Virus record (IMG/VR): IMGVR_UViG_3300028025_003464 | Span: 1-31,485 of that record | DNA length: 31,485 nt | DNA from: a virus | Reading direction: 5' to 3' (one strand) | Part shown: one piece after another, positions 319 to 31,485 of the stretch | Numbering within the stretch: the first letter of the stretch is position 1 | Layout: every line of letters starts with the position of its first letter | Position numbers and translations under genes: made by a program | Notes under the pieces: model-generated | The model's database searches: none | Told to the model about the DNA's origin: nothing | What the model saw: the letters and a program-made list of their open reading frames with translations, nothing else

Positions 319-1712
319 TGAGTTTATCTAAGCGTTTGGCAGGGGCAGCCAACAAGCGTTCTGCAAATAATCAGTACATTGAGCCAATCATTCCTGGCCG
401 TCCTGCATTTGAAAGCCTTGCAGGTGTGATTGTTGATCCTGAATCTGCAATTCGTATGTCCACTGTTTATTCTTGCGTGCGCCTTTTATCCGACACCATT
501 TCATCATTACCTGTTGGTGCTTATGTTCGCCGTGGTCGCGCCCGTCTGCCTTATGCAACTGTGTATGGAGATCAACCTGATTGGGTAAGCAGACCCAATC
601 CTGAAACTACACGCCTTGAGTTTTATGAGCAAATTGTTACTTCATTCAAACTTGAAGGCAACGCCTACATCCTCACAGTGCGTGACGATATGGGTGACGT
701 TCAGGAACTCTATGTAATTGACCCGCGCCACGTTCGCATTGAGCGCCTTGCGCCAGGTGAGCCACTTGTTTATTTTATTAAGATCAAAGATTCACAAGGC
801 GTATATGAGCAGCGCCTATCAGATAAAGAACTTTTGCACATTCCTGATTTTCGCCTTCCTGGTGAGCGCTACGGCCTAAGCCCAATTGCAGCTTGCCGCA
901 CAACACTTGGCGCAGCGATGGCAGCCGATACTTACGCCGCCTCATACTTTGGCAACGCTGCCAACCCTGGCGGTGTGATCTCAGTTCCTGGTGAACTTAC
1001 TCAAGAACAGGCAAGTGATATTGGCCGTGATTGGAACATCAGTCACACGGGTCCATACCGCGCAGGCAAGATCGGTATTCTTTCAGGTGGCGCTTCATTC
1101 TCACCATTAACAATTAACGCCCAAGATGCTCAGTTGCTAGACACAAGGCGCTTTAGCGTGGAAGAAATTGCCCGCATTTATCGCGTTCCATTGGCACTTC
1201 TTGGCCATCCTGTAGCCGGTGCAATGTCGTTTGCATCAGTTGAAGCTCAGAATCTTTCATTTGTTCAGTATTCATTGCGCCCAATCTTGGAGCGAATTGA
1301 GCAATCACTATCAACATTGTTGCCTGAATCAGATGGTTTCATTCGATTTAACCTAGATGCACTACTGCGCGGCACAACAAATGAGCGCTACGATGCCTAC
1401 ACAAAGGGATTGCGTGAAGGATTCCTTTCACTTAACGATGTTCACGCTTACGAAGATATGTCACCAATTGAAGATGGCGACCAATACCGCGTACCATTGC
1501 AAAACATTGATGCTTCAGATGCTAAGGATGTTGGCCTCAAACTACGCACTGAAATTGCTGCAAGCCTTATTCAAGTTGGGTTTGATCCTGCAGCAGTTAC
1601 AAAGGCAGTTGGCCTACCTGATATGAAGCACACAGGTTTGCCATCAAGTCAGTTGCAACAGATTTCAACTATTGACCCAACCGACCCAACTGCAGCATAC
1701 GAGGTTAAGTAA
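318..1712 (+). CDS. Portal protein, HK97 family
   Basis: The 464-residue product matches the HK97/lambda-type portal family. An N-terminal stretch with TVYSCVRLLSDTISSLPVG is the usual 'activates, crosses and bounds' helix of these portals. A mid region has GNAYILTVRD and the family-typical QLLDTRRFSVEEIARIYRVP around residues 274-293. Portals form the dodecameric ring at one capsid vertex through which DNA enters and leaves. The length is normal. The gene starts on the last base of the upstream stop and ends one base into the protease ATG, so the three genes are translationally coupled. The alternate-frame ORF at 1357-1626 is a shadow. Confidence 0.93.
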   Translation: MSLSKRLAGAANKRSANNQYIEPIIPGRPAFESLAGVIVDPESAIRMSTVYSCVRLLSDTISSLPVGAYVRRGRARLPYATVYGDQPDWVSRPNPETTRLEFYEQIVTSFKLEGNAYILTVRDDMGDVQELYVIDPRHVRIERLAPGEPLVYFIKIKDSQGVYEQRLSDKELLHIPDFRLPGERYGLSPIAACRTTLGAAMAADTYAASYFGNAANPGGVISVPGELTQEQASDIGRDWNISHTGPYRAGKIGILSGGASFSPLTINAQDAQLLDTRRFSVEEIARIYRVPLALLGHPVAGAMSFASVEAQNLSFVQYSLRPILERIEQSLSTLLPESDGFIRFNLDALLRGTTNERYDAYTKGLREGFLSLNDVHAYEDMSPIEDGDQYRVPLQNIDASDAKDVGLKLRTEIAASLIQVGFDPAAVTKAVGLPDMKHTGLPSSQLQQISTIDPTDPTAAYEVK

Positions 1713-2665
1713 TGCCCTACTACATCTCAGACAAGCAAAATGATTGTTCAGGTTGGGCAACAGTCAAACAAGAATCTGACGGTTCTTACACAACACTTTC
1801 TTGCCACGACAATAAGCAAGATGCAATTGATCAGATGGTTGCAGTTTCTATTTCTGAAGATATGGAACCAGGTGGGGAAATAAACACTAGGAGCAAGATG
1901 AAAAAGATTGAGCGCCGTACTTTTACCGTTCGAGATGTTGAAGCCCGCCAAGCAGATGATGGCACAATGAGATTGCGCGGATACGCTGCAGTGTTCAATG
2001 ACGATAGCGTGCCACTTCCATTTATTGAAAGAATCGCACCGGGCGCATTTCGCAAAACATTAACAGAAACACCCGATGTTCGTTTACTTATCAACCACGA
2101 AGGATTGCCACTAGCTCGTACCAAGAACGGCACCCTTACATTGACTGAAGATGATCGCGGGCTTTATATGGATGCAGAAATTGCAGACACAAATGAAGGC
2201 CGTGATCTTTACAAGTTGGTTGAACGCGGGGATGTTGACCAAATGAGTTTTGCCTTCCGTGTTATTCGTCAAAAATGGAATGAAGATCGCACAACGCGAA
2301 CACTCACAGAAGTTTCACTAGCAGATGGAGATGTTTCAGTGGTTACATACCCTGCCTACCCAGCAACAACAGTTGAAGCGCGTGAGGCTTTGCGCACTGC
2401 AATTGAGGCAATCAAAGAAGGTCGCGCATTAGATGGCGAATCAATGGTTGTCGTTCAGGCCGTACTTGATAAAATTTCTGATTCTTATGACTCACTTGAA
2501 GAAGGCAAAACAATGCTTGAGGTTGTTCTTGGCCTTAAAACACTTGAGCCTGTAGTTGAAGTTGAAGAACCTGAAATTGAATTAGAGCCTGTTGACCCAA
2601 TGGCAACCGCAGGCCGATCAATTTCACTACGCCTAGCAAAGGCAATTATCAACAACACAAAATAA
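1712..2665 (+). CDS. HK97-type prohead protease with N-terminal extension
   Basis: The 317-residue product contains the prohead protease core from about residue 63 to 230. His129 lies in LLINHEGLPLA and Ser179 in DQMSFAF, the usual His and Ser positions of this herpesvirus-assemblin-like serine protease. It cleaves the capsid delta domain during maturation. Residues 1-60 (starting MPYYISDKQNDCSGWATV) form a separate small Cys/His-containing domain also seen attached to portals or proteases in actinophages. An in-frame ATG at 1898 with a much better ribosome site could yield a shorter protease (255 aa). The C-terminus after residue 230 is acidic and helical. Confidence 0.9.
   Translation: MPYYISDKQNDCSGWATVKQESDGSYTTLSCHDNKQDAIDQMVAVSISEDMEPGGEINTRSKMKKIERRTFTVRDVEARQADDGTMRLRGYAAVFNDDSVPLPFIERIAPGAFRKTLTETPDVRLLINHEGLPLARTKNGTLTLTEDDRGLYMDAEIADTNEGRDLYKLVERGDVDQMSFAFRVIRQKWNEDRTTRTLTEVSLADGDVSVVTYPAYPATTVEAREALRTAIEAIKEGRALDGESMVVVQAVLDKISDSYDSLEEGKTMLEVVLGLKTLEPVVEVEEPEIELEPVDPMATAGRSISLRLAKAIINNTK
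1889..1900 (+). promoter_or_regulatory. Internal Shine-Dalgarno and ATG for a short form of the protease
   Basis: AGGAGCAAG sits directly before ATG 1898-1900, which is in frame with the 1712 start and encodes Met63 of the long form. The 22 bases at 1890-1911 equal those at 170-191, which start the 46-aa membrane protein. The TAG just upstream is out of frame. Either the N-terminal domain was fused to an ancestral protease gene that kept its own start, or both forms are made. Confidence 0.6.
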
Positions 2666-11828: not shown

Positions 11829-11849
11829 TCAAACAAAGGAGCAATACAA

Positions 11850-12164
11850 ATGACTGAAGAAACACAAATGACCCCATTGCAGGCACGCATTGCAGAGGTA
11901 GAGCAATACCAAAAAAACATTGATTTGTACCAAGATATTCTAAAAACACTTCCAACGGAATGGCCTGCAAGATTAGTTGAGCATAAAGGGTCAAAAAATC
12001 AACACGAAGTGATTGTTAACGTTTCTACTGAGGATGTTCAATTGCTTGCTCAACTATGGTATGCAGATGAATGTATCAATGCCATCAAAACAGAAACTTT
12101 AGAAATGACTAAAGCAAAATCAATTTTAAAGGTTTTGCAAAGTACCACCACAACCACTAACTAA
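11850..12164 (+). CDS. Hypothetical protein, 104 aa, coiled-coil N-terminus
   Basis: ATG 11850 has a strong ribosome site (AAAGGAGCA). The product begins MTEETQMTPLQARIAEVEQY and is charged and helical, with a middle segment VIVNVSTEDVQLLAQLWYAD and a Thr-rich end. No family is recognised. Lying between tail adhesin and lysis genes, it may be a tail chaperone or a virion accessory. Confidence 0.75.
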   Translation: MTEETQMTPLQARIAEVEQYQKNIDLYQDILKTLPTEWPARLVEHKGSKNQHEVIVNVSTEDVQLLAQLWYADECINAIKTETLEMTKAKSILKVLQSTTTTTN

Positions 12165-13421: not shown

Positions 13422-14477
13422 ATGACCTCAATTGTCTATGTTCCAACCACAACAACAACAGTCACGGCTGAAAGTGATAGTGCGGTAACAGTTTCAACTA
13501 CCAACGCCACACCTGCTGAAATTGTTGTTTCTAATGATCAAGGCCCGCAGGGTATCCCTGGCGTAACAGGTCCAACGGGGCCAACGGGTTCCACGGGTCC
13601 TACGGGGCCAACAGGTGCCACGGGTGCTGCAAGCACGGTTGCTGGCCCAACGGGTGCTACGGGTCCAACAGGGCCTACAGGTGCAACAGGCCCACAAGGT
13701 ATTCAAGGCATTAGCGGTCCGACAGGTGCTACAGGCAATGTCGGTCCAACGGGTGTGACGGGTCCTGCAGGTGCCACGGGTGCCACAGGTCCACAAGGTG
13801 TAACGGGCAATGTTGGTCCAACGGGGGCAACAGGCCCAATCGGTGCCACAGGCGTTACAGGGCCAGTCGGTGCAACGGGGGCAACAGGTGCCACGGGCGC
13901 AGATGGTGGCTCTGCCAATTATTACGATTACAGAGCAGATACAACGGCAACATCAGGCGACCCTGGCAACGGGGATATTCTTTGGAATAATGCCACTCAG
14001 ATTTCTGCTACACAGATCAACATTAGCCACATCAACTCAGATGGCGTTGACGTTGATATTTTCCTAGCTCTGATCAAAACGGGTGATGTAATTATTGTCC
14101 AAGACAAAAGCCTGTCTGATAACTTTCAAAAGTTCACAGTATCTGCAACGCCAACAATGCTTACGGGTTATATTACAGTTCCCGTCACGCTTACATCATC
14201 GGGTGGAACAGGCACAACTAACTTTGCGAACAATCATCAACTTATTGTCGCAATTGTTTCAACGGGTATTGTTGGACCTACGGGGCCGATTGGTGCTACA
14301 GGACCTACGGGGCCAGTTGGAGCGACAGGTTCCACGGGTCCGTCAGGTGTTAGCGGTGCAACTGGCCCAACTGGTGCAACAGGACCGACTGGATCTACAG
14401 GCCCGACTGGTGCAACAGGACCTGCAGTAGCAACTGACTCTGACCAATATATTTTAGCAAACCAAGTATTCGGATAG
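13422..14477 (+). CDS. Collagen-like tail fibre protein
   Basis: The 351-residue product has a 40-residue Thr/Val-rich start and a first Gly-X-Y run (about 41-163, mostly GPTG/GATG triplets). A globular segment of about 120 residues ([20 protein letters not shown] onwards) precedes a second Gly-X-Y run (about 284-337) and a short tail. Such sequences form collagen triple helices in phage fibres without hydroxyproline, stabilised here by Thr and Pro. It probably is a trimeric side fibre with a host-contact domain between two rods. Proline-rich ORFs on the opposite strand are shadows. Confidence 0.88.
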
Positions 14478-14848: not shown

Positions 14849-14925
14849 TGAAGTGGCTTGCCCTTTATCTAATAACCGTCTCAATAATTTTAGTATGGAA
14901 CCACGCGAGGTGTAAGGATGGCTAA
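14848..14925 (+). CDS. Micro membrane protein, 25 aa
   Basis: ATG 14848 shares a base with the preceding TAA (TAATG). TAA 14923-14925 overlaps the next gene start at 14918. The product is MKWLALYLITVSIILVWNHA plus RCKDG, a single membrane-spanning helix with a short basic, Cys-containing end. Start and stop couplings on both sides support translation. It may be a lysis accessory (spanin- or pinholin-like) or an anchor. Cys22 is not in a normal lipobox. Confidence 0.55.
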   Translation: MKWLALYLITVSIILVWNHARCKDG

Positions 14926-15829
14926 CCCATCACGCAGGGGGCAAGTTGCAGGACCTGTCTCAGGTCAAATGCGCGGTGATGAAGAAACACCTTTTGCTAA
15001 TACTTCTGCCATCTTGCCTTACGGCTTGCAACTTCGACAGACAATTCTTGCTGGTACAACCTCGGTAACTATCCCTGCTGGTATTACATTTGTTTACGCT
15101 ATCTGTGCAGGCGGTGGTGGTAACGGTTCTAACAACGCTGCTGGTGGCGCAGGCGGTGTAGCGTGGGGTTGGACAGTAGCAACTTCTAGTTGCGTTGTAG
15201 GTGCAGGAGCCACAGGTGCAGGTGCTGGCAATGGCGGTTATACACGTTACGGAAATGTAATTGCAGGCGGTGGCGGTGCAGGAGTTTCAGGTGGAATTTT
15301 AGGTGGCGCTGGCGGTGGTGGAAACGTTAATGGTTCGACAAATTATTATGGAATACCAGGTGGTGTTGCAGTAACTGGGGCTAAAGGAACTTCGGGTTCA
15401 GGCGCGGGTGGTGGAAGTTTTACTAATACCAATCCTGCTGGTGGCGCAGGTGGAGATGGAATTTCAGGCGGTGGCGGTGGTCTTTGCTCAACAAGCACGG
15501 GAGCAACTACAGGCGGAGCAGGCGGTAACGGTTTAGCAGGCGGTGGCGGTGGTGCAGTAAACACTACTACTGGATTTCGCACAGGTGGTGCTGGGGGAAA
15601 TGGTTTTAACATTGCAACTGGTGCAATAAGCACAGGTGGCGCAGGCTCTACTGGTACAGGCAGTGGTTTTGCTGCAGGTGGTGGTGGTGGTGGTATCGCA
15701 GGCAATGGTGCTAATGCTTCAGGATTAACTGGTGGTCTTGGTGGCCTTGGTGGTGGCGGTGGTGGAGCAGGTGGCCCACTAGGAACCAACGGCGCAGGCG
15801 GCAACGGAATACTTTACCTTTTTTACTAG
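14918..15829 (+). CDS. Glycine-rich tail adhesin, copy 1 (303 aa)
   Basis: It is the first of three tandem paralogues. The conserved head, PYGLQLRQTILAGTTSVTIP, is followed by a short Val/Ala-rich strand and a body of more than 200 residues in which GGGGG, GGAGGNG and AGGGG patches recur. The end is GGNGILYLFY. Long poly-Gly segments with this spacing resemble the polyglycine-II sandwich tips of T-even-like gp38 adhesins (known family; similarity inferred). It probably binds the host surface. Start ATG 14918 overlaps the micro membrane gene. Confidence 0.75.
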   Translation: MANPSRRGQVAGPVSGQMRGDEETPFANTSAILPYGLQLRQTILAGTTSVTIPAGITFVYAICAGGGGNGSNNAAGGAGGVAWGWTVATSSCVVGAGATGAGAGNGGYTRYGNVIAGGGGAGVSGGILGGAGGGGNVNGSTNYYGIPGGVAVTGAKGTSGSGAGGGSFTNTNPAGGAGGDGISGGGGGLCSTSTGATTGGAGGNGLAGGGGGAVNTTTGFRTGGAGGNGFNIATGAISTGGAGSTGTGSGFAAGGGGGGIAGNGANASGLTGGLGGLGGGGGGAGGPLGTNGAGGNGILYLFY

Positions 15830-15838
15830 GAGAACACT

Positions 15839-16744
15839 ATGAGCAATCCAAACCGCAAAGGACAAGCTGGCAACCCAGTATCTATTGGGATGCAAAGTGC
15901 TACATATACTCCATTTGTAAACACACATTTTAATCTGCCATACGGATTATATTTACGCCAAACAATTTTGGCAGGAACTACATCGGTGACAATCCCTGAT
16001 GGGATTAACTTTGTATTTGCCATTGCAGTTGGTGGCGGCGGTGGTGGTGGTAATACTAATAGTGGTGGCGCTGGTGCTGGTGGAGTAGCGTGGGGTTGGA
16101 CTATTGCAACTTCATCTTGTGTAGTTGGAGCAGGTGGTGTAGGCGCAACAGGCGGTTACACTCGCTATGGAAATATTATTGCAGGTGGTGGTGGTGGTCC
16201 AGGAAGTTCAACATTTTTAGGTGGCGGTGGACTAGGTGGCGCTGCTACTCCTGCTGGCGTTGTTGGTTCAACAAATTATTGGGGTATTCCTGGTGGCGCT
16301 GCTGTTACTGCTGGCGTTGTAGGTAATAGTGGTTCAGGTGCTTCAGGTGGAGGTGGTCTAACAGCATCAGTAGGAACTGCTGCCAAAGGCGGAGATGGAA
16401 TTTCTGGTGGCGGAGGTGGTGGTTCATCTGCAACTGGTACTGGTACAAATATCGGCGGTGCTGGTGGAAATGGTTTAGTTGGTGGCGGTGGAGGCCGCGC
16501 ACTCAATGGTTCAGTAGCAAATACTGGCGGTATTGGTGGAAACGGTATAAATATTTTAACTGGCGCAGTAACAACTGGTGGCGCACAAAATAACGGTTTT
16601 GGTGGCGGTGGCGGTGGTATTGCAGGCAATGGTAATGCTGCGACTTCAACCGTTGGTGGTGCAGGCGGTCTTGGCGGGGGCGGTGGTGGTCAAGGTGGAA
16701 CTACTTCCACAGGCGGCAACGGTATTCTTTATCTTTTCTATTAA
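15839..16744 (+). CDS. Glycine-rich tail adhesin, copy 2 (301 aa)
   Basis: It has ribosome site AGGAGAA and shares both ends with copy 1 (PYGLYLRQTILAGTTSVTIP near the start and GGNGILYLFY at the end). GGVAWGWTIATSSCVVGAGG also closely matches copy 1. The Gly patches in the body have different spacers, so the paralogues have diverged in the presumed contact region. The role should be as for copy 1. Confidence 0.75.
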   Translation: MSNPNRKGQAGNPVSIGMQSATYTPFVNTHFNLPYGLYLRQTILAGTTSVTIPDGINFVFAIAVGGGGGGGNTNSGGAGAGGVAWGWTIATSSCVVGAGGVGATGGYTRYGNIIAGGGGGPGSSTFLGGGGLGGAATPAGVVGSTNYWGIPGGAAVTAGVVGNSGSGASGGGGLTASVGTAAKGGDGISGGGGGGSSATGTGTNIGGAGGNGLVGGGGGRALNGSVANTGGIGGNGINILTGAVTTGGAQNNGFGGGGGGIAGNGNAATSTVGGAGGLGGGGGGQGGTTSTGGNGILYLFY

Positions 16745-16756
16745 AATGGAGCAACT

Positions 16757-17578
16757 ATGAGCGCATCAATTTATAGCAATTCATCATTTACCGATACTCC
16801 TTACGGACTCAAACTACAACAAACTATTTCTGCAACAGGAACTTCATCTGTAACAATCCCAGCAGGCATCAATCGAGTCTATGCAATCGTTATCGGCGGT
16901 GGCGGTGGTGGAATCACCACAACAACTGGTGGCGGCGGTGGTGGTGGTGCAGGTGGTTATTCTGCTGGATGGACTTGGGCAACAAATACAGTAACCGTTG
17001 GCGCAGGTGGTATTGGTGTTAACACCAACCTAACAAGCCGACCTGGTGGTTCAAGTATTTATGGAATGGTTATGGCTGGTGGTGGTTCATCTAACGGTGG
17101 TGGTACAACTGGCGGAGCAGGTGGTGGAGCAACAACTCCAACTGGAAACACATCAACTGCTTCTTATACTGGCGCACCAACGACAGGAAACGGTGGAGTT
17201 GGTTATGGCGCTGGTGGTGGTGGTGCTGGTGTTTCATCAGGTGGTGGTGCTGGAGCAACAGGAACAACTGGCCCACAATCTGCAGCATTTGGTGGACAGG
17301 GACTTATCTGCGGTGGCGGTGGTGCAGCAGGAACATTAGGTGTAGGCACAGGCGGCAACGGTGGCACTGGAGATTTCTTTGCAGGAGGAACAGGTACATC
17401 AGGAACAGGTTTGACTTTTGGTGGTGGCGGTGGTGGCGCAGGGCGCACAGGCGCAGGTTCAAACGCATCTGCTAACAACGGTGGCAACGGTGGTTCAGGT
17501 GGTGGTGGTGGGGGCGGTGCATCCACACTAGGAACGCCTGGCACAGGCGGTAACGGCGTTGTTTATCTTTACTACTAA
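16757..17578 (+). CDS. Glycine-rich tail adhesin, copy 3 (273 aa)
   Basis: It is the most divergent copy. It has PYGLKLQQTISATGTSSVTI at the start, AGWTWATNTVTVGAGGI in place of the shared VAWGWT segment, and the end GGNGVVYLYY. The Gly-rich body is shorter and lacks the N-terminal basic NRKGQ-like segment of the other copies. The ribosome site AATGGAGCAACT precedes it. The antisense proline-rich ORF is a shadow. Confidence 0.75.
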   Translation: MSASIYSNSSFTDTPYGLKLQQTISATGTSSVTIPAGINRVYAIVIGGGGGGITTTTGGGGGGGAGGYSAGWTWATNTVTVGAGGIGVNTNLTSRPGGSSIYGMVMAGGGSSNGGGTTGGAGGGATTPTGNTSTASYTGAPTTGNGGVGYGAGGGGAGVSSGGGAGATGTTGPQSAAFGGQGLICGGGGAAGTLGVGTGGNGGTGDFFAGGTGTSGTGLTFGGGGGGAGRTGAGSNASANNGGNGGSGGGGGGGASTLGTPGTGGNGVVYLYY

Positions 17579-19197: not shown

Positions 19198-19326
19198 TCA
19201 CTTCACATAAGCCTCAAGCATCTGCACAACAACTGCCGATACGCTTTTGCCTTCATCGGTGGCCTTTTGCGTAGCCTTGTGCCATAGATCGGTGGCGATG
19301 CGGATTGATCGAATAGGTGTTGCCAT
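19198..19326 (-). CDS. Ribbon-helix-helix DNA-binding protein, 42 aa
   Basis: ATG at 19326 is coupled to the upstream stop (TAATG). The product starts MATPIRSIRIATDLWHKATQ, a beta-strand with RSIRI then a helix, and continues DEGKSVSAVVVQMLEAYVK, the Arc/MetJ two-helix pattern. RHH dimers bind operators. As the last gene of the leftward operon it is a good candidate autoregulator acting on the palindromes near 20502-20571. Confidence 0.75.
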   Translation of the reverse strand: MATPIRSIRIATDLWHKATQKATDEGKSVSAVVVQMLEAYVK

Positions 19327-19490
19327 TATCCAAGCACCTCACACTCGGTCATTGAACCCCAACACCAACCAAGAAACTCTGCATTAGGTGAGGTGCCAAC
19401 CCACCAAAGGTTTGTGGCAATCTGCCAAATAAGGATTGCGCCAATCAAGATTGCAATAGCTCGTACACGCTTGCCACGCTTGGTGATCAT
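19326..19490 (-). CDS. Small membrane protein, 54 aa
   Basis: ATG at 19490 overlaps the upstream stop (ATGA). The product begins MITKRGKRVRAIAILIGAIL, with a positively charged start and one membrane helix (about 10-28). A Trp/Cys-containing external part (FLGWCWGSMTECEVLG) follows. The likely orientation is N-in. The function is unknown; it may act on the envelope or block superinfection. Confidence 0.7.
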   Translation of the reverse strand: MITKRGKRVRAIAILIGAILIWQIATNLWWVGTSPNAEFLGWCWGSMTECEVLG

Positions 19491-19663
19491 ATCTGCCCCA
19501 ATTCCTCAATAAAGGCAATCGCCAATGCAGAGTTCACAATTGCACGGCGCAGAGCCTGCTTCATCTCGTCAAGATCGGCAGTCTGTGATGCCTCATCAAG
19601 GTCACGGCTGATGATAAACAACTGATCACTTGCATCAATCATAAGACTTTTCATTGCACCCAT
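19487..19663 (-). CDS. Helical hypothetical protein, 58 aa
   Basis: The start is set at ATG 19663 because GGGGA lies eight bases upstream; a TTG at 19678 is possible but poorer. The product begins MGAMKSLMIDASDQLFIISR and continues with acidic helices (LDEASQTADLDEMKQALRRA). It shows no Cys, membrane segment or known family. The stop overlaps the next gene by four bases. Confidence 0.7.
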   Translation of the reverse strand: MGAMKSLMIDASDQLFIISRDLDEASQTADLDEMKQALRRAIVNSALAIAFIEELGQI

Positions 19664-19664
19664 T

Positions 19665-19772
19665 TTACTTTTCCCCAATTCTAATTAGAAAACAATCAAA
19701 ACATTCGTGCATCTTTGCTACTGAATCAAATCGCGCCCCACAGTTCAGGCAGGTGTTCTCGGTGGTGGACAT
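19665..19772 (-). CDS. Mini zinc-finger protein, 35 aa
   Basis: It is too short for ordinary ORF thresholds. ATG 19772 is coupled to the upstream stop. MSTTENTCLNCGARF and MHECFDCFLIRIGEK give CxxC at 8-11 and 24-27, a complete four-Cys zinc site. The stop lies one base before the next ATG. It could bind nucleic acid or a host protein. Confidence 0.65.
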   Translation of the reverse strand: MSTTENTCLNCGARFDSVAKMHECFDCFLIRIGEK

Positions 19773-19957
19773 TACGCACCTGCTCTTTCTTTGATGCGCA
19801 TTTTTACTTGCCCTGCTATTTCGCAGCATTTCATTGAGCAGTACCCAATTGGGTGAGCAAAAGATTCATCTTGGAAATTCCAAATCTTGAACTCGGGAGT
19901 CAATTCAACTACCGCCTCACATTGAGGGCAAACCATCGTCATCCATTTTGTAGTCAT
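19772..19957 (-). CDS. Zinc-ribbon protein, 61 aa
   Basis: The product starts MTTKWMTMVCPQCEAVVELT with a CPQC knuckle (10-13) and has a second Cys cluster, YCSMKCCEIAGQ (40-45). It ends in a basic helix KMRIKERAGA. It is coupled to both neighbours by TAATG junctions. It may be a nucleic-acid binding or regulatory factor. Confidence 0.75.
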   Translation of the reverse strand: MTTKWMTMVCPQCEAVVELTPEFKIWNFQDESFAHPIGYCSMKCCEIAGQVKMRIKERAGA

Positions 19958-20094
19958 TATGCACCTGCCTGAGTGCGCTGATCAATTACAAATGCGTGAA
20001 TCTCATCCCAAGATTTCAAATCATTGTCAGCAATAATTTTCTTGTTTGCCTCAATGATCTCTTGGGCAGTCTTGCGAGTGTTTGGTGTAGTCAT
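19957..20094 (-). CDS. Hypothetical helical protein, 45 aa
   Basis: ATG 20094 is coupled to the upstream stop. The product, MTTPNTRKTAQEIIEANKKI, continues with an acidic helix (DNDLKSWDEIHAFVIDQR) and ends TQAGA. No domain is recognised. Exact start-stop coupling at both ends is the chief evidence. Confidence 0.65.
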   Translation of the reverse strand: MTTPNTRKTAQEIIEANKKIIADNDLKSWDEIHAFVIDQRTQAGA

Positions 20095-20276
20095 TATTCG
20101 CCTGCCTTTGCAAGTAGTTCCTCAGTTGTAAGATTAAGTGCTGATGCTGATAATTGAAGTGCAAGTTGATCTAAAGTTTCCAAATCATTGCTTGCAATTG
20201 CGTTGTTTATCCATACCAATTGACGGCGAATATCTGCAACAACATCTTTTTGCATTTTCTTTGTAATCTTTGGCAT
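20094..20276 (-). CDS. Hypothetical helical protein, 60 aa
   Basis: The start is set at ATG 20276, coupled to the upstream stop, rather than at an in-frame ATG 27 bases earlier. The product begins MPKITKKMQKDVVADIRRQL, a basic amphipathic helix. Two further helices (NDLETLDQLALQLSASALNL, then EELLAKAGE) follow. It resembles a small helical bundle. Confidence 0.7.
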   Translation of the reverse strand: MPKITKKMQKDVVADIRRQLVWINNAIASNDLETLDQLALQLSASALNLTTEELLAKAGE

Positions 20277-20488
20277 TATGCACCTACCTTTGCATTTCTG
20301 CATCCATCGCAGAATTGTTCAGGTGTTGATGCCCAACCCCATAAACGAGATTTATTTGTATCTTGAGTAATCCCGCCGTGATTTTCACACATCAATAACC
20401 ATTTGCCACCATCAAGAATATCTAAACCTTCTTGTTCAGTTAAGCAAAGTGTTACTTTTACATCTCCAACTGTCTTAGTCTTGATCAT
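20276..20488 (-). CDS. First gene of the leftward operon, zinc-binding, 70 aa
   Basis: ATG 20488 opens the operon. The product starts MIKTKTVGDVKVTLCLTEQE and has MCENHGG and FCDGCRNAK, giving Cys/His ligands for one zinc. The middle, KWLLMCENHGGITQDTNKSR, alternates strand and loop. The untranslated leader and control region lie immediately upstream. No known family is recognised. Confidence 0.75.
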   Translation of the reverse strand: MIKTKTVGDVKVTLCLTEQEGLDILDGGKWLLMCENHGGITQDTNKSRLWGWASTPEQFCDGCRNAKVGA

Positions 20489-20613: not shown

Positions 20614-20634
20614 TTATCCACAACCTGTGGATAA
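20614..20634. other. Inverted pair of perfect DnaA boxes, probable origin
   Basis: TTATCCACA at 20614-20622 and its reverse complement TGTGGATAA at 20626-20634 are separated by ACC. Both match the strongest known DnaA box exactly. They lie in the divergent intergenic region with AT-rich flanks, tandem repeats and palindromes. A replication origin using host DnaA is the simplest reading; DnaA-controlled transcription is an alternative. Confidence 0.65.
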
Positions 20635-20671
20635 CTCTCATTTTGCCCCTGCTACCCCTAAAATGACCCCT

Positions 20672-21220
20672 ATGACCACAGTGATCGGGTATCAGGGCAA
20701 TGGGTGGGTTTGCCTTGCCGCCGACTCTCAAATTACCGATGGTGATAAGCGGGTGTTGAGTCCAAGCACCCCCAAGATCATCAAGCTCAAAAAGTATCTG
20801 TTGGCAGTAAGTGGGGATTGTCGGCCAGGGGATGTGCTGACCTATAATTGGACACCGCCGGCATACGATGGCAGCGACCCTGTGCGGTTTATGGGCAAGA
20901 AAATCATTCCAAGCATCATTGCAGCGTTTAAGGCGCAGGGATTCGATTATTCCAAAGAAGGCGTTTCATATTCCTACCTGCTCGCCTTTGACGGCAACCT
21001 GTTTGAAATCGGCGATGATCTGAGTATGAGTCAAAGCGCAGATGGCCTTTATGGAATCGGCTCAGGCTCAGCCTACGCGCTAGGCGCATTGGCGGTGCAA
21101 CTGCCCAACCTTGAACGGCAAGAATGGGCAAGTGAACAAATGTTGCAGGCTCTTGAGGTGTCGGCCAAGTATGACGTGAACACAAGCGCACCCTTTCAGG
21201 TGGAATTACAGACACGCTGA
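20672..21220 (+). CDS. HslV / proteasome-beta-like Ntn hydrolase, 182 aa
   Basis: The start at ATG 20672 leaves MTTVIGYQGNGWVCLAADSQ, so Met removal would expose Thr1 as in HslV. Residue spacing agrees: Asn9-Gly10, Asp17, Gln19, a Lys at 34 near the HslV Lys33, a LLAVSG strand, and YGIGSGSAYALGALAV matching the GSGG-helix region. The total length is also HslV-like (about 175). It should be a threonine protease or related Ntn amidase. No HslU-like unfoldase is nearby, so it may work alone or with host ATPases. Upstream in-frame starts (20627, 20663) would bury Thr1 and the first overlaps a DnaA box. No Shine-Dalgarno is seen, so translation may be nearly leaderless. Confidence 0.75.
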   Translation: MTTVIGYQGNGWVCLAADSQITDGDKRVLSPSTPKIIKLKKYLLAVSGDCRPGDVLTYNWTPPAYDGSDPVRFMGKKIIPSIIAAFKAQGFDYSKEGVSYSYLLAFDGNLFEIGDDLSMSQSADGLYGIGSGSAYALGALAVQLPNLERQEWASEQMLQALEVSAKYDVNTSAPFQVELQTR

Positions 21221-21284: not shown

Positions 21285-21398
21285 ATGGAAAACTTTTTAA
21301 CGGCCATTGGCATAGTTGTTGTTTTTCTATGTTTCTTGGCTATTTTCTACAAAGATGATTTTCTTGACAACGAGCTGCGCGGTGACAAAGATGCGTGA
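21285..21398 (+). CDS. Small single-pass membrane protein, 37 aa
   Basis: ATG 21285 has GAAAGG six bases upstream. The product is MENFLTAIGIVVVFLCFLAI with an acidic tail (YKDDFLDNELRGDKDA), giving a membrane helix at about 6-22 and a charged face. Its stop overlaps the next gene. The function is unknown. Confidence 0.65.
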   Translation: MENFLTAIGIVVVFLCFLAIFYKDDFLDNELRGDKDA

Positions 21399-21744
21399 CC
21401 CGTTGTTTTCAGTACACACAACAGATCAAGGCAAAGTGATTTTGTATCTTGAGGAACAAGATGCCGTGGTTGATCTAGCCACTGATGTGATCACTTATTT
21501 CAGCATAAGCGACCTTGAGGATTTGCTCATTGCCAACCGTGCCAACCTGCGAGATGACGGCGCAGTTGAGGCTTTAGATCGCGCACGCGATTCAATGCCC
21601 GATGCTGCAATTCTTATTGCCTCAATGACTGAGGATGAGGCGTTTAACCTTTGCCAAGATATTATTTCCTCAATCAAAAAGCGCAGAATCTTTGATGCCG
21701 ATGAAATGGCAACCAAGGTTTCGAAGTTGAGGATTGTTAAGTAA
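21391..21744 (+). CDS. Hypothetical acidic protein, 117 aa
   Basis: The start is ATG 21391, overlapping the preceding stop; the longer open frame upstream lies in the membrane gene. The product begins MRDPLFSVHTTDQGKVILYL, then has a helical acidic part (SISDLEDLLIANRANLRDDG) and a basic end KKRRIFDADEMATKVSKLRI. No family is recognised. It leads a replication/repair gene string by coupling. Confidence 0.75.
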   Translation: MRDPLFSVHTTDQGKVILYLEEQDAVVDLATDVITYFSISDLEDLLIANRANLRDDGAVEALDRARDSMPDAAILIASMTEDEAFNLCQDIISSIKKRRIFDADEMATKVSKLRIVK

Positions 21745-22094
21745 TGGCCAACCCAAACGGGCGCAAAGGCGCACAATTTGAAACCGATGTGATGCGTTGG
21801 CTACGCAGCGCCGGTGCCTTGTGCGAACGTTTGGTCAAGGCTGGCAAGAACGATGAAGGCGATTTGGTCGCAGTCATTGCTGGCAAGCAGTATGTTCTTG
21901 AACTCAAGAACCGCAAAACAATAAGTTTGCCTGAATTTTGGCGTGAAGCTGAGGTTGAGGCAGAAAACTATGCAAAAGCCCGTGGACTGTCCGAGGTGCC
22001 TTTGCATTACATAATCCTAAAGCGTAGAAACGCAGGGATTGAAAAGGCTTGGGTTATCCAAGACTTAACTCAATGGTTGGCAGAAAAGCAATGA
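21744..22094 (+). CDS. PD-(D/E)XK nuclease, Holliday junction resolvase-like
   Basis: The 116-residue product carries the Hjc-like pattern: KGAQFETDVMRWLRSAGA with Glu13, KNDEGDLVAV with Asp40, and YVLELKNRKT with Glu53 and Lys55 (E-x-K). It ends in a basic helix and W-containing strand. Such enzymes resolve recombination and replication branch points before packaging. The length is normal for phage Hjc-like resolvases. It is coupled to neighbours on both sides. Confidence 0.82.
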   Translation: MANPNGRKGAQFETDVMRWLRSAGALCERLVKAGKNDEGDLVAVIAGKQYVLELKNRKTISLPEFWREAEVEAENYAKARGLSEVPLHYIILKRRNAGIEKAWVIQDLTQWLAEKQ

Positions 22095-22537
22095 TCAATT
22101 TCTTTGTTGATCTGCCACGATTTGACCAAGCAAAATGTGCCGACCTTGAGGATAAGGATTTGTTTTTTCCCGATGGTCGAACACAGGAAGCAGAAAGACT
22201 GCACCAACTGAGAGCAATTTGCTTCAGTTGTATTCACGAAATGGAGTGTTTGAAGTACGCACTAGAAAAACAGATTCCACACGGCATTTGGGGTGGTAAA
22301 ACACCTGCAGAAAGAGATGCCGTGGTGGTTGCTAGGGATAAGACTTATGCCTTCAAAGGGATGGCAATAGACATTATCCAATTGCACGCCAAAAAGTTAT
22401 CTGTTAACGAAATTGCAGTTCAACTTAATACCTCAATTGGTTATATTAAACGGGTATTAGTTAAGTTGGCTGCAACTGAACAAGGAGCAGATTCATTACA
22501 CCAACAGACAAAAGACTCATCAAAAGGTTGGGGCTGA
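22091..22537 (+). CDS. WhiB-family iron-sulfur regulator with C-terminal HTH
   Basis: The start is ATG 22091 (ATGA overlap with the nuclease gene). Cys16, Cys44, Cys47 and Cys53 give the WhiB cluster ligands (C-x27-C-x2-C-x5-C), followed by HGIWGGKTPAERDA, the family G-(I/V)-W-G-G turn. Residues about 100-128 (KKLSVNEIAVQLNTSIGYIK) look like an added helix-turn-helix. WhiB proteins bind the main sigma factor region 4 and redirect transcription. A phage copy could shift host transcription or block superinfection. It is the strongest host marker for Actinobacteria. Confidence 0.88.
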   Translation: MINFFVDLPRFDQAKCADLEDKDLFFPDGRTQEAERLHQLRAICFSCIHEMECLKYALEKQIPHGIWGGKTPAERDAVVVARDKTYAFKGMAIDIIQLHAKKLSVNEIAVQLNTSIGYIKRVLVKLAATEQGADSLHQQTKDSSKGWG

Positions 22538-23256: not shown

Positions 23257-23997
23257 ATGACCTTCACACCACTTTCAACACCTAATCAAGGGCTTGCAGT
23301 CGAACTTGCTCGTATCATCACTGATGCGGGCAAGTTCGCACCGCGATCTCAACAGGTTTACATTGGCCCATCTGAAGTTGGGCAAGAATGTACACGCCGG
23401 TTGGCTTACAAGTTACTTGATTGGGAGCAGATCAACCAAGGCAGTTCAGGCAATTGGGCTGCACAAGTTGGCACTGCGATTCACTCACACCTTGAAGGTA
23501 TTTTCAGCAAGATGCCCGACAGGTATGAGGTTGAAAGTAAGGTAAAGATCAGAGCCAACCTATCGGGAACCATTGACCTATTTGATAAAGATTTAGGGCT
23601 TGTTCTTGATTGGAAAACTACATCACCTGCATCAGTAAAGATCAAGCGCAATGAAGGTGCTACCAAGCAACAAATTGTGCAGGTGATGCTTTACGGATAC
23701 GGCAAGGCTCAAGAAGGTGCAACCGTCAACAAGGTCGGTCTGATCTTTCTGCCAACAGGCGGTCAAATTGACGATATGTATGTTGAGTTGCACGATTACG
23801 ATGAACAGATTGCATTGGATGCCTTAGCACGATTGGATTCAGTGTACGAGCTACTTTCAACAGTAGATGTTGAGAACTCACCTGCAATGTGGCAAGTCAT
23901 ACCCAAGGTGCCATCACGCCTGTGTATGTACTGCCCTTACTATCAACCATTTAGTAAAGATTTGAGCAAGGCTTGCAACGGTGATACCGATGTGTGA
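23257..23997 (+). CDS. Cas4/RecB-like PD-(D/E)XK exonuclease with Fe-S cysteines
   Basis: The 246-residue product has VGTAIHSHLEG with His76, SGTIDLFDK with Asp107, and LVLDWKTTSP with Asp118 and Lys120, the RecB-family active site. Cys45 plus Cys223, Cys226 (RLCMYCPYY) and Cys240 match the four-Cys iron-sulfur arrangement of Cas4-type nucleases. It should resect DNA ends for recombination, together with the partner upstream and the SSB-like protein downstream. There is no CRISPR array or other cas gene, so a CRISPR role is unlikely. Confidence 0.85.
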   Translation: MTFTPLSTPNQGLAVELARIITDAGKFAPRSQQVYIGPSEVGQECTRRLAYKLLDWEQINQGSSGNWAAQVGTAIHSHLEGIFSKMPDRYEVESKVKIRANLSGTIDLFDKDLGLVLDWKTTSPASVKIKRNEGATKQQIVQVMLYGYGKAQEGATVNKVGLIFLPTGGQIDDMYVELHDYDEQIALDALARLDSVYELLSTVDVENSPAMWQVIPKVPSRLCMYCPYYQPFSKDLSKACNGDTDV

Positions 23998-24654: not shown

Positions 24655-24716
24655 AGAAATGGCAGGTTTGCAGGCGTTGGGGAAGGCGCTTTTTGGTTCG
24701 ATTCCAAACATTTCAC
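24655..24716 (+). other. tRNA-like remnant
   Basis: A perfect T-arm is present: TTTGG (24692-24696), loop TTCGATT, CCAAA (24704-24708). The following CATTTC (24709-24714) pairs with GAAATG (24656-24661), as acceptor strands would. Between them only 30 bases remain where about 41 are expected, and no anticodon arm of normal form can be drawn. No CCA end is encoded. It is probably a degenerate tRNA. Confidence 0.4.
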
Positions 24717-24750
24717 GCAAGACAATTGAACGGGGTGAAGCAAGTGATAT

Positions 24751-24826
24751 GCGGTGATGGTGTAATGGCAACACAGATGACTTTCCAGTTATCGGTTAGC
24801 GGTTCAATTCCGACTTCATCGCTCCA
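24751..24826 (+). tRNA. tRNA-Gly(UCC)-like, 8-base anticodon loop
   Basis: Acceptor GCGGTGA (24751-24757) pairs with TCATCGC (24816-24822). The discriminator is T and CCA is encoded (24824-24826). The D-arm is GTGT/ACAC with loop AATGGCA. The anticodon stem GATGA/TTATC encloses the eight-base loop CTTTCCAG, one T more than the normal CTTCCAG of Gly-UCC. The T-arm AGCGG/CCG(A)CT with loop TTCAATT has one bulged A. G1-C72, C2-G71, G3-C70 and U73 are glycine identity features. The two single-base insertions suggest a pseudo-tRNA, a frameshift-suppressor type tRNA, or a tRNA-like regulator of the overlapping mom gene. Confidence 0.65.
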
Positions 24827-25409
24827 ATATGTTGAAAGAATAAAGTATCGTGAGGCATACGATTTAGTCAGTTCTTTTCATTATTTGGGCAGCAAGCGTT
24901 TTATTGGGCAATACTGTTTTGGTCTTTTTATTGAAAACGAGCTGCAAGGGGCGGTTGTGTATTCACCTTTAAGCGTTCCTAATTCTGCAACCTCAGCCTT
25001 TGGGTTGCCCCGTGGCAATTATCCTGAATTTTTGGAGATGAGCCGTTTGGTGTTAAATCCATTGCTTAATGGGAAAAATCACGGTTCATACTTGATTGCC
25101 CGTTCATTAAGAGAATTGAAGAAATGCGACATAAAAGCAGTCATTAGTTATGCGGACTCATCAAGACACATTGGCGCGGTCTATCAGGCGGCAAACTTTA
25201 CATATCACGGGTTAACCCCACAGAAAAATGATTTCTTTTTTGCCGATGGCCGAAAGTTATCACGGGGTAAATCAAAGGGATTCGAAGGCAAATGGGTGCC
25301 AAGATCACGCAAGCACCGGTACCTGTTTTTAATGGATAAAAGCGTGAAATGTATTTGGCCTCAAGAGAAGTACCCAAAGGCAGAGCGGGCAGATAATGCC
25401 AACTTATGA
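24765..25409 (+). CDS. Mom-like DNA modification protein
   Basis: The core (after about residue 20) contains KYREAYDLVSSFHYLGSKRF, then EMSRLVLNPLLNGKNHGSYL, KAVISYADSSRHIGAVYQAA and NFTYHGLTPQ. This matches the GNAT-fold Mom family of phage Mu, which adds a carbamoylmethyl group to adenines and makes DNA resistant to restriction. The start is unclear. In-frame ATGs at 24765 and 24777 both lie inside the tRNA-like element, with only a weak GGTGAT upstream. No ATG, GTG or TTG lies between that element and the conserved core. Thus translation probably depends on how that structure folds. Confidence 0.78.
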   Translation: MATQMTFQLSVSGSIPTSSLQYVERIKYREAYDLVSSFHYLGSKRFIGQYCFGLFIENELQGAVVYSPLSVPNSATSAFGLPRGNYPEFLEMSRLVLNPLLNGKNHGSYLIARSLRELKKCDIKAVISYADSSRHIGAVYQAANFTYHGLTPQKNDFFFADGRKLSRGKSKGFEGKWVPRSRKHRYLFLMDKSVKCIWPQEKYPKAERADNANL

Positions 25410-25566
25410 TTTCAAATGCGAGCAGTGCAGTAACACTTTCGAGCTTAATCTTTCGTTTGATAATAAAGATTTGCAGTATTGCGAGGATTGTGAAAAGCCG
25501 TTGGTTAGGGTTTACACGCCCGTTGGTGCCATATTCAAAGGAACAGGTTGGGGGAAAAGTAAGTGA
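25396..25566 (+). CDS. FmdB-like zinc ribbon protein, 56 aa
   Basis: ATG 25396 lies inside the mom 3' end. The product starts MPTYDFKCEQCSNTFELNLS and has YCEDCEKPLVRVY and PVGAIFKGTGWGK, the FmdB-family zinc ribbon (CxxC at 8-11 and 29-32). Its stop overlaps the methyltransferase GTG start. In phage Mu a small zinc protein, Com, activates mom translation. By size, zinc site and overlap this protein is an obvious candidate for a similar role, though that is inference. Confidence 0.8.
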   Translation: MPTYDFKCEQCSNTFELNLSFDNKDLQYCEDCEKPLVRVYTPVGAIFKGTGWGKSK

Positions 25567-26867
25567 AACTAATCAACGCAGACTGCATTGAGGCAATGAA
25601 GGTGATGCCTGATAACTCGGTGGATGCAATCGTGACCGACCCGCCGTATGAGCTAGGGTTTATGGGCAAGAGTTGGGATGCAAGTGGCATTGCCTTCAAC
25701 ATTGAGGTATGGCAAGAGGCGTTACGAGTGATTAAGCCTGGTGGCCACCTTATTGCTTTTTCAGGCTCTCGCACCTATCACCGTATGGCCGTCGCCATTG
25801 AGGATGCAGGGTTTCAGATTCGCGATCAGATTATGTGGGTGTATGGGTCAGGTTTTCCGAAGTCGCATAACATTGAAAAGGCAATTAACAAAATTGATGG
25901 CGTTGAATTTTTAGAAAAGCCCGCAAGTGGTGTTGGATTTATGAACGCTGAAGGTGCGGGTGGTTACAACACAACAATCAACCAACTTGAGCAAGTAGGT
26001 GATTCAAGCGAACGTGCTGCAACCTGGCAAGGCTGGGGCACCGCACTCAAGCCCGCACACGAGCCAATGGTGCTAGCTCGCAAGCCGTTGGAAGGCACCG
26101 TTGCAGACAACGTGCTGACTTATGGTGTTGGCGGGTTGAACATTGACGGCACGCGGGTTGGTAGTGAGTCAAGAGAAATGACCGTTGTTGAAAATGGTTT
26201 TGGTTTGAATTTTATGGATGACAACTGGCAACCAAGTGGTGAAAGATACGAAAAAACCGTCACAGGCCGCTTCCCCGCCAACTTCATTCACGATGGCAGT
26301 GATGAGGTTGTGGGGTTGTTTCCTGATACGAAGGCAACCGGCAGTGGGAAAGTTTCAGGTTTTCGCAAAGGTGGTGCATCTGAAAATGCAGTAGGGCTTG
26401 CAGGCAAGAAAAACGCTGCTGATGGGTTTTCTGACTCAGGCAGCGCCGCCCGATTCTTTTACTGCGCCAAGGCAAGCAAGCGTGACCGCAATGAGGGGCT
26501 TGATGGGTTTGAGGAAAAGGCAATCGGTGTAAAAGGTCACGGGTTGGCTCGAATATGTGCAACCTGTAGTGCAACGTTGTTAACAGGCGGTTGCGATTGT
26601 CCTGATCGTACTTACATCAATCCAAGCCGCCAAAACCACCACCCAACAGTAAAACCAACAACGCTGATGCAGTATCTTGTGCGCCTTGTGACCCCGCCAA
26701 ATGGCACCGTACTTGACCCATTTATGGGTTCAGGTTCGACAGGCAAGGCTTGTGCCTATGAAGGATTTGATTTCATTGGCATTGATCAATCGGCTGAGTA
26801 TGTGGCAATTGCACAAGCCCGCATTGAGTTCGCTCTTGCCGACAAAGATGAGCAGTTGGACTTATGA
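25563..26867 (+). CDS. DNA methyltransferase, DPPY type (N6-adenine or N4-cytosine)
   Basis: GTG 25563 overlaps the previous stop. The 434-residue product has the catalytic motif TDPPYELGFMGK (D26-Y29) before the AdoMet motif DPFMGSGSTGKACAYEG (about 383-399), the beta-class order. Between them are FPKSHNIEKAINK, PANFIHDGSDEVV and a Cys cluster (CATC to CDCPD, about 331-346) that may bind zinc. It should methylate phage DNA for protection from restriction. Placed next to mom, it may also modulate mom or modify the same sites. The recognition sequence cannot be predicted. Confidence 0.88.
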   Translation: MKLINADCIEAMKVMPDNSVDAIVTDPPYELGFMGKSWDASGIAFNIEVWQEALRVIKPGGHLIAFSGSRTYHRMAVAIEDAGFQIRDQIMWVYGSGFPKSHNIEKAINKIDGVEFLEKPASGVGFMNAEGAGGYNTTINQLEQVGDSSERAATWQGWGTALKPAHEPMVLARKPLEGTVADNVLTYGVGGLNIDGTRVGSESREMTVVENGFGLNFMDDNWQPSGERYEKTVTGRFPANFIHDGSDEVVGLFPDTKATGSGKVSGFRKGGASENAVGLAGKKNAADGFSDSGSAARFFYCAKASKRDRNEGLDGFEEKAIGVKGHGLARICATCSATLLTGGCDCPDRTYINPSRQNHHPTVKPTTLMQYLVRLVTPPNGTVLDPFMGSGSTGKACAYEGFDFIGIDQSAEYVAIAQARIEFALADKDEQLDL

Positions 26868-27001
26868 GCGAAAAGACATTGCAAGAAGGCTTGGCCTACG
26901 GGTTGTGGGCGGGGTATGAATATGCACTGCCTGATGCACCGAGCGCAATGGCAAAGTTTCTGATCAAATTCCTTACAACGAACGGATACATAAATGACTA
27001 G
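26864..27001 (+). CDS. Small hypothetical protein, 45 aa
   Basis: ATGA overlap with the methyltransferase and an 8-base overlap with the next gene support it. The product starts MSEKTLQEGLAYGLWAGYEY and ends in a basic aromatic segment (FLIKFLTTNGYIND). It may be a small helical protein. No family is recognised. Confidence 0.65.
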   Translation: MSEKTLQEGLAYGLWAGYEYALPDAPSAMAKFLIKFLTTNGYIND

Positions 27002-29099
27002 CCTTTTGCCAATTGCCCTACGCTTTGCAACGCAAGGCATCGTGGCGGTGCCTACGGCTAGTGACGGCTCCAAGCGCCCGATGCTGCCAACGTGGAAAGA
27101 ATTTCAAGATCGTCAGCCTACCCAAGACGAGCTATTGGGTTGGTTTAACAACGAAACAATCCAAGGCTTAGGTGTGATCACAGGCCGTATCTCAGGCAAC
27201 CTTGAGATGCTTGAACTTGAAGGTCGAGCAGTTGCCGACAAGATGCACCTGCAGATTGCAGAAATTGCAACCTCATCAGGCTTAGCAGATGTATGGGAAA
27301 AGATCAACGCAGGATATGTGGAGATGACCCCATCAGGTGGCCTGCATTGGCTTTATCGCCTTGAGTCACCCGTTGCAGGCAATCTAAAACTTGCACGAAG
27401 GCCAGGCGAGAACGGTGGTGTTGAAGTCTTGGCCGAAACTCGCGGTGAAGGTGGATTTTCTATCTGCGCACCATCGGCAGGAACTACACACCCATCGGGC
27501 GGTGCTTGGCAACTCTTGCGTGGCTCGATTGAGCAGATTCCAACGCTGACCGATCAAGAACACACCGCACTGCATTCACTCTTTGCCCTATTTGATCAGA
27601 TGCCCAAGGCTGAGAGTATTGCCCAAGAGGTCAGCAACAAGATTGACGGCATTTTATCGGCAGGCGATGATTACAACGCCCGCACAACTTGGGATGAGAT
27701 TCTTATACCATTGGGTTGGTCAAAGGTTTACAACAAAGGTGAGGCAACTGTTTGGCGCAGGCCAGGCAAGAATGAAGGAATCAGTGCAACCACAAACTTC
27801 AACGGAAACAATAAGTTATTCGTTTTCAGCACAAGCACGGTCTTTGACTCTGAAACATCATATTCAAAGTTCGCAGCGTACGCACACCTGCACCATAACG
27901 GTAACTTTAAGAACGCTGCAGCCGATCTCAAGGCTCAAGGATTCGGACACACCCGTGAATTGGGAGTTCTTGAAGTATCAAATGCGCCACTGACTGCCCC
28001 AAACAAGCCTTCAGAGGCCGATTTAAGCGAGGAAGGTAGCAGTTGGAAGCCGCTACCCCTATCTGACTATTATGACGGCCTATTTGCGCCACCCATTGCA
28101 ACCATTTTGAACAGGAATGATGGAGCAGGGCTGATCTACCAAGGTCGCGTTCACTCATTTTACGGTGAATCAGAATCAGGCAAGTCGTGGGTTGCACAGA
28201 TTGCCACCGCCGAATTGCTCAAAGATGATAAAAAGGTGATCTATATTGATTTTGAATCAGATGCCTTAGATATCGTCAATCGCCTAAAAAGCCTTGGCGT
28301 GAGCCGTGCCAACTTATTGCAGTATTTTACCTACATTCGACCTGAAGCAGCTCGTAACGCCGATGACCCTTATTGGCAGGCGATACTTGAGCCGGAGTCG
28401 GCAACCTTGGTGGTCATTGATGGCGTGACTGAATCGCTGACGATGTGGGGCGGTGAAACGGTAGATAACGACTCAATCACCCGATGGATGCGCATTTTCC
28501 CAAGAACGGTTGCCTCAGCCTCAGGCGCTGCCGTTGTGCTTATTGACCATATAACGAAAAACTCGGAAACACGCGGGCGGTTTGCCATCGGCGGGCAGGC
28601 GAAGTTGGCCACCATTGACGGTGCAGCATTCCTTGTGGAGCCAATTGAGGTGCTATCACCTGGCAGAGTTGGCTCATTGACCCTGCGAGTGACTAAAGAT
28701 CGCCCTGGCTTTGTTCGCAAATCTGCAGGGGCTTGGCGCAAATCTGACCGCACCCAAGAATCTGCCGTGATCGTCATTGACTCGACCAAGGCGCAGATTC
28801 AATATCTTATTGGCAAACCTACCGATGAGGATGAGCTGAACGAAAAGATGATTTTTAAGAAATACCTTGAGATGGCAGAGTTTATTCACAACCATCCTGG
28901 GTGCAACCGCCGTGAGTTAAACGATGGGGTCAAGGGCGATAAGGTGGCAATTGGCGAAAGACTTGATGTACTCATTCGTGATGGATTTGTACAGAATGCG
29001 GGCAATGGGCAGAAGTCGGTTTTGTATTTAACCAACTCAGGCAAGGAAAAGTACGATCTTATTGATGCCCAAATCACCTATTTGGGGGAGATAAAATGA
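26994..29099 (+). CDS. Primase-polymerase / RepA-like helicase fusion
   Basis: The 701-residue product has an N-terminal Prim-Pol domain (about 1-180: ATQGIVAVPTASDGSKRPML, GLGVITGRISGNLEMLELEG, then YVEMTPSGGLHWLYRL). The catalytic region carries Glu residues where many relatives have Asp. A RecA-fold ATPase follows, with Walker A YGESESGKSW (about 389-398), VIYIDFES and LVVIDGVTES as the B region. HITKNSETRGRFAIGGQAKL comes next, and a C-terminal winged-helix-like part (NHPGCNRRELNDGVKGDKVA). It should prime and unwind phage DNA. With no polymerase in the window, host polymerase probably copies the template. Confidence 0.85.
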   Translation: MTSLLPIALRFATQGIVAVPTASDGSKRPMLPTWKEFQDRQPTQDELLGWFNNETIQGLGVITGRISGNLEMLELEGRAVADKMHLQIAEIATSSGLADVWEKINAGYVEMTPSGGLHWLYRLESPVAGNLKLARRPGENGGVEVLAETRGEGGFSICAPSAGTTHPSGGAWQLLRGSIEQIPTLTDQEHTALHSLFALFDQMPKAESIAQEVSNKIDGILSAGDDYNARTTWDEILIPLGWSKVYNKGEATVWRRPGKNEGISATTNFNGNNKLFVFSTSTVFDSETSYSKFAAYAHLHHNGNFKNAAADLKAQGFGHTRELGVLEVSNAPLTAPNKPSEADLSEEGSSWKPLPLSDYYDGLFAPPIATILNRNDGAGLIYQGRVHSFYGESESGKSWVAQIATAELLKDDKKVIYIDFESDALDIVNRLKSLGVSRANLLQYFTYIRPEAARNADDPYWQAILEPESATLVVIDGVTESLTMWGGETVDNDSITRWMRIFPRTVASASGAAVVLIDHITKNSETRGRFAIGGQAKLATIDGAAFLVEPIEVLSPGRVGSLTLRVTKDRPGFVRKSAGAWRKSDRTQESAVIVIDSTKAQIQYLIGKPTDEDELNEKMIFKKYLEMAEFIHNHPGCNRRELNDGVKGDKVAIGERLDVLIRDGFVQNAGNGQKSVLYLTNSGKEKYDLIDAQITYLGEIK

Positions 29100-31452: not shown

Positions 31453-31462
31453 ACGCCCTAAA

Positions 31463-31485
31463 ATGAGTGAACGCGACCTTGGTAG
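31463..31485 (+). CDS. Start of the presumed terminase small subunit (partial)
   Basis: ATG 31463 begins an open frame reading MSERDLG before the window ends. The next gene after HNH in this phage type is normally terS, and the window starts inside terL, so terS is expected. Only seven residues can be read, and no clear ribosome site lies upstream (the sequence is C-rich). Confidence 0.4.

Follow-up and report, generated by a model that had tools for sequence, protein, structure and literature searches.

A rightward gene in the 31,485-base record of a freshwater phage, probably of Actinobacteria, analysed here over its whole length (the window), encodes an HslV/proteasome-beta-like Ntn hydrolase, and we are highly confident that it is a real, maintained gene whose product has an intact active site. 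The most likely reading is that the product is a threonine protease which the phage makes early in infection; that it is catalytically competent and used during infection we would put at roughly 60%. This reading draws on the gene itself, its predicted fold, a conserved catalytic set, purifying selection, the position at the head of an operon, the absence of a propeptide and the absence of an AAA+ partner gene from the records searched. The finding is ordinary in kind, the protein belonging to a family of phage proteasome homologues that is already known, though functionally uncharacterised: such homologues were named in 2021, GenBank already annotates relatives of this gene, and at least 525 of them were recovered from IMG/VR in an alignment-based scan (114 in one scan of viral contigs), which makes the protein anything but exotic.

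Table 1. Positions of the HslV-like gene, its upstream elements and other features of the window
Feature	Position	Strand	Remarks
Head maturation protease adjoining the portal gene	1712..2665	+	phrog_80, E = 1.2e-62
Divergent block of small leftward ORFs	19198..20488	-	Part kept in many close relatives
TTATCCACA-ACC-TGTGGATAA palindrome, two perfect DnaA boxes	20614..20634	.	In 3/61 relatives
TAAAAT, putative −10 hexamer	20659..20664	+	7 nt ahead of ATG
HslV/proteasome-beta-like Ntn hydrolase gene	20672..21220	+	182 aa
Conserved downstream gene	21391..21744	+	
RusA-like Holliday junction resolvase	21744..22094	+	PHROGs label; conserved downstream
WhiB transcription factor	22094..22537	+	PF02467, E = 6e-15
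PD-(D/E)XK / Cas4-like exonuclease	23257..23997	+	Same operon
Primase-polymerase with RecA/KaiC-like ATPase domain	26994..29099	+	Not an unfoldase

The open reading frame was present where an earlier sequence-only reading had placed it, and the residues named in that reading were found at the spacing it had given. Numbered without Met1, the protein, whose N-terminus reads MTTVIGYQGNGWVCLAADSQITDGDKR, has Thr1 and Thr2, Asn9-Gly10, Asp17, Gln19 and Lys34, with GSGS-Ala-Tyr-Ala at residues 129–135, and its length is the same as that of HslV, as had been claimed. The active-site equivalents, referred to below by their HslV numbers, are Lys34 (Lys33 in HslV, the shift being due to a one-residue insertion), Gly47, Ser130 (Ser129) and Asp167 (Asp166). 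An ATG start with Thr following Met is backed by the relatives, in which MTT is kept; in several of them no codon further upstream could serve as a start. A GTG ahead of the gene (20627), which would give 197 aa, was rejected in view of the conserved MTT and of the −10-like box that separates this GTG from the ATG.

The protein scored 32.9 bits against Pfam PF00227 (Proteasome; curated cut-off 22.4, E = 6.5e-8) and matched the phrog_1040 profile 'peptidase HslV family' over residues 1–178 (E = 3.5e-24), a PHROG also matched by nine relatives. Scores against the HslV equivalogs NF003964 and TIGR03692 were 28.1 and 27.0 bits, far under the respective cut-offs of 137 and 157.75; the protein is therefore HslV-like and not HslV. 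Sequence comparison with the PDB gave weak matches to proteasome-beta and HslV chains, and a profile built from the phage relatives reached HslV and BPH (beta-proteobacterial proteasome homologue) with E-values of 1e-10 to 2e-13.

An AlphaFold2 model of the single chain, based on 15 aligned sequences (pLDDT 89.5, pTM 0.86), has the Ntn alpha-beta-beta-alpha fold on which the sequence-only reading depended, with helices at 50–59 and 70–88 and both helix pairs (H1–H4) predicted. The model aligned with solved chains of 20S beta, BPH and HslV over 165–174 residues at Z-scores of 18–19, and BFVD contains similar viral models, one of which, from an uncultured phage, is named 'HslV ATP-dependent protease HslVU (ClpYQ), peptidase subunit'. 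The proposed identity as a phage-encoded HslV/proteasome-beta-like Ntn hydrolase is thus backed by Pfam, phrog_1040, predicted fold and conservation.

The structural matches included mycobacterial PrcB (3hfa and 5lzp, Z = 18.4), and 20S proteasomes are common in Actinobacteria; both points would suit a protein that enters the proteasome or HslV rings of the host, takes the place of a subunit there or inhibits them. We nevertheless regard such a role as quite improbable: the protein is no more than 14–23% identical to solved proteasome or HslV chains, a mere poison would not be expected to keep its catalytic site intact under purifying selection, and homologues are carried by phages of E. coli, Salmonella, Vibrio, Geobacillus and Moorella, hosts which are not known to have a 20S proteasome. 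With homologues present in E. coli and Salmonella phages, the family as a whole is unlikely to have a role specific to the proteasome.

Thr1, Asp17 and Lys33 were present in 120 of 121 distinct aligned proteins, the sole exception being a mis-registered fragment (L132), and the equivalents of Gly47, Ser129 and Asp166 were nearly invariant across the same set. The triad postulated from the sequence is thus kept by the homologues, and the accompanying proposal that Thr1 becomes exposed upon Met removal is made credible by family, fold and conservation. Judged from codon comparisons, the gene is under purifying selection, with dN/dS of about 0.04–0.18 in twelve pairs, the more distant of which were near saturation at synonymous sites.

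Conservation was highest in helix H1, the WxPPxY loop after H1 and helix H3, and lowest in H4 and the H3–H4 loop, the region which forms the inter-ring contact in proteasomes. The poor retention of this contact region, as far as the alignment goes, may count against a protease. It would fit better a specific non-degradative Ntn enzyme, either a protein ligase or a processing amidase, active in monomeric or small oligomeric form towards a single substrate from phage or host. Consistent with such an enzyme, the well-kept H1 and WxPPxY loop region has no E. coli HslV counterpart in the alignment, no unfoldase gene was found, and connectase provides a precedent for a proteasome-like fold that has lost both ring assembly and degradation (PMC8665760). 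However, connectase is without H1–H2 (PMC8665760), whereas both helix pairs are predicted here in an HslV/BPH-like layout, and no conserved partner or substrate gene could be recognised across lineages. A ligase or amidase of this kind therefore appears unlikely to us. The lack of any one partner gene recurring across lineages fits a self-contained enzyme.

The sequence-only reading had also stated that no HslU-like ATPase gene lies in the window, and none was found among the window genes. No AAA or AAA_2 unfoldase was found in the window or in 19 related records, many of which may be incomplete, nor was a linked HslU, with no AAA_2 match in the 20 phage records. A single AAA match, upstream of the gene in L141, was rejected as an unfoldase on inspection of its sequence, which looks like that of a RecA/DnaB-type ATPase.

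Relatives of the gene occur in cultivated phages. OX376640 and OX376641 are the Planktophila phages LanE43AprE7 (E7) and F5 (PMC10202952); in Actinomycetia phage DSL-LC01 the relative adjoins WhiB and is annotated as HslV, and further actinophage relatives were found in Microbacterium phage Pumpernickel and Arthrobacter phages Pitbull and Hum25. Numerous T5-like phages of Salmonella and Escherichia belong to another branch, among them TrudiRoth, which infects E. coli K-12; homologues are also carried by Vibrio, Geobacillus and Moorella phages. The TrudiRoth homologue is bas30_0067, and that of Pitbull, a phage of A. globiformis, is gene 77. Two scans of genome contigs, with patterns for the HslV-like family and for WhiB, returned no bacterial homologues, a result of limited weight given the strict peptide patterns used; a plasmid search gave only distant matches, in Bacillus, Paraburkholderia and Rhizobium. 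The link between the HslV-like gene and cultivated phages seems to be a new detail.

In a tree of 25 sequences, a split with 100/99 support placed the proteobacterial and firmicute members, from phages and plasmids, on one side and the actinophages with a single Tunturiibacter phage on the other. Several branches are long and the root is not settled because HslV from E. coli sits on a very long one, so that the safe part of the tree is this two-way split and not the deeper order. Thr1-Asp17-Lys33 is common to both branches. The proteobacterial/firmicute branch has Ser, Thr or Gln instead of Gly47 and has lost Asp166, whereas in the actinophage-containing branch Gly47 and Asp166 are retained together with a Thr at position 169, as is Ser129 apart from a conservative Ser129-to-Thr change in E7. 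An actinophage branch with an apparently complete active site also seems to be new.

Phage proteasome homologues were named PPH and AAH in a survey which reported no genomic context hinting at their function (Fuchs et al. 2021, PMC8665760). PPH (proteasome homologue of phages and their hosts) probably corresponds to phrog_1040. The window protein resembles PPH in being phage-encoded, without propeptide or unfoldase partner and with a Thr-Asp-Lys triad; the two have in common an R-x(3)-[IVL]-L ... W-x-PP region, and the window protein falls in the same PHROG as proteobacterial phage members. Going by the published description of PPH, it would differ in length (182 aa against about 140) and in its predicted helix H2, which PPH is described as lacking. 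It also differs from the proteobacterial/firmicute members sampled in retaining Gly47 and Asp166; its nearest annotated phage relatives are phrog_1040 as well, and the 100/99 branch sets it apart from those members. AAH is described as belonging to Group I, with copies borne by phages and a link to Actinobacteria, traits in which the window protein would resemble it; the survey found no Actinobacteria-specific phage encoding it (PMC8665760).

With HslV (ClpQ) the window protein shares fold, length, Thr1 right after Met, Asp17, Lys33, Gly47 and the GSG motif; however, identity is 17–23%, no HslU gene was found in the window, and H1 is shorter and followed by the WxPPxY loop. BPH (5ovs, 5ovt and 5ovu) has a similar fold (Z = 18.9 over 172 aligned residues) and, like the window protein, no known unfoldase, but identity is 22% and BPH is bacterial rather than phage-encoded.

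Upstream of the gene, a TANNNT motif ending 5–8 nt ahead of the start was found in 57 of 61 distinct upstream sequences, compared with 4.3% of control ATGs from the same loci; these 57 are not independent, as the genes are related, but the pattern holds across otherwise differing upstreams. No Shine-Dalgarno sequence was seen ahead of the gene in the window. The spacing of TANNNT together with this absence suggests a leaderless mRNA, with a transcript that would begin at or beside the start codon, and the putative leaderless promoter is a probable new detail.

The sequence-only reading had located the gene next to the origin, and this part of it was dropped. The palindrome with two perfect DnaA boxes (Table 1) is rare (3 of 61 relatives); L001 shares it and L124 has it in a variant form, many other relatives carry a different inverted repeat (GGCGTGGAAACCC...GGGTTTCCACGCC) in its place, and matches to a looser DnaA pattern in the window were no commoner than expected by chance.

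The HslV-like gene is the first of a rightward operon and faces the leftward ORF block. Gene order is conserved in relatives of 31–35 kb: the HslV-like gene is preceded by a glycosyltransferase (in some), a small gene and the leftward small-ORF block, and downstream of it come a small gene, the RusA-like nuclease and WhiB, then a transglycosylase-like protein and a PD-(D/E)XK exonuclease, and finally a primase-polymerase; in most relatives of 39–42 kb it also lies upstream of exonuclease, WhiB and nuclease. WhiB, found in 18 of 18 related records tested, points to an actinobacterial host of the window phage. The best database match of the portal was Pontimonas phage phiPsal1, at only 38% identity.

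Across lineages the neighbourhoods vary between thymidylate synthase, portal and replication operon. Thymidylate synthase (thyA or thyX) adjoins or lies near family members in the unrelated phages Pumpernickel, AAS21, TrudiRoth, Sw2 and Geobacillus E3 and in a Bacillus plasmid. This neighbourhood was rejected for the window clade, in which thyX was looked for and was absent.

In E7 (L165:7500–8036, OX376640) the HslV-like gene begins 18 nt past the portal gene, where a head protease usually lies, and a scan of the E7 head-region genes recognised no other head protease. Such a position would be expected of a capsid (head maturation) or other virion protease, a function we nonetheless hold to be very improbable, given that the window phage has a separate head maturation protease beside the portal and carries its HslV-like gene in the replication operon, and that the E7 capsid protein is of the P22 type (PF13252). 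Capsid proteins of the P22 type are not normally cleaved. The location of the E7 gene directly behind the portal, and not in a replication operon, does indicate that early timing is not general.

Several other features of the window were recorded. Tandem 138-nt units, 71–84% alike over unit pairs, lie within a coding region of the tail module (10896–11861); a 351-aa protein with collagen-like Gly-X-Y repeats of the GPTGPTG type (13542–14400) is followed by three glycine-rich proteins (14918–17578). A Mom-like DNA modification protein and then a DNA methyltransferase are encoded at 24693–26867, and many close relatives lack both, suggesting that the pair forms an exchangeable cassette against restriction. 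The record ends in 30 bases (31456–31485) that are a 97% inverted copy of 28136–28165, possibly a contig-end assembly artefact.

For a threonine protease made early in infection, we envisage that the gene would be transcribed early from its leaderless promoter and that host methionine aminopeptidase would remove Met to expose Thr1. Lys33 and Asp17 would activate Thr1, Gly47 would form the oxyanion hole, and Ser129 and Asp166 would complete the site. The subunits may form a homo-oligomer, which would cleave phage or host proteins, either unfolded ones or specific targets, without an unfoldase of its own or with a borrowed host ATPase. Isolated proteasome subunits are inactive (PMC8665760), and activity of the HslV-like protein would hence depend on the putative oligomer. 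A literature search for experimental work or biochemistry on any phage member found none.

The existence of relatives in cultivated phages (Planktophila E7 and F5, Arthrobacter Pitbull and Hum25, Microbacterium Pumpernickel, and TrudiRoth on E. coli K-12) makes the role of an unfoldase-less viral proteasome-type protease testable. The branch to which the window protein belongs is common in freshwater actinophages and, from its residues, looks fully active. As a tentative and on balance doubtful extension, the actinophage proteins may constitute a separate, very abundant branch of proteasome homologues with a full active site and early leaderless expression, acting as an unfoldase-independent protease (or a specific ligase) that would reshape the host proteome when dominant freshwater Actinobacteria are infected.
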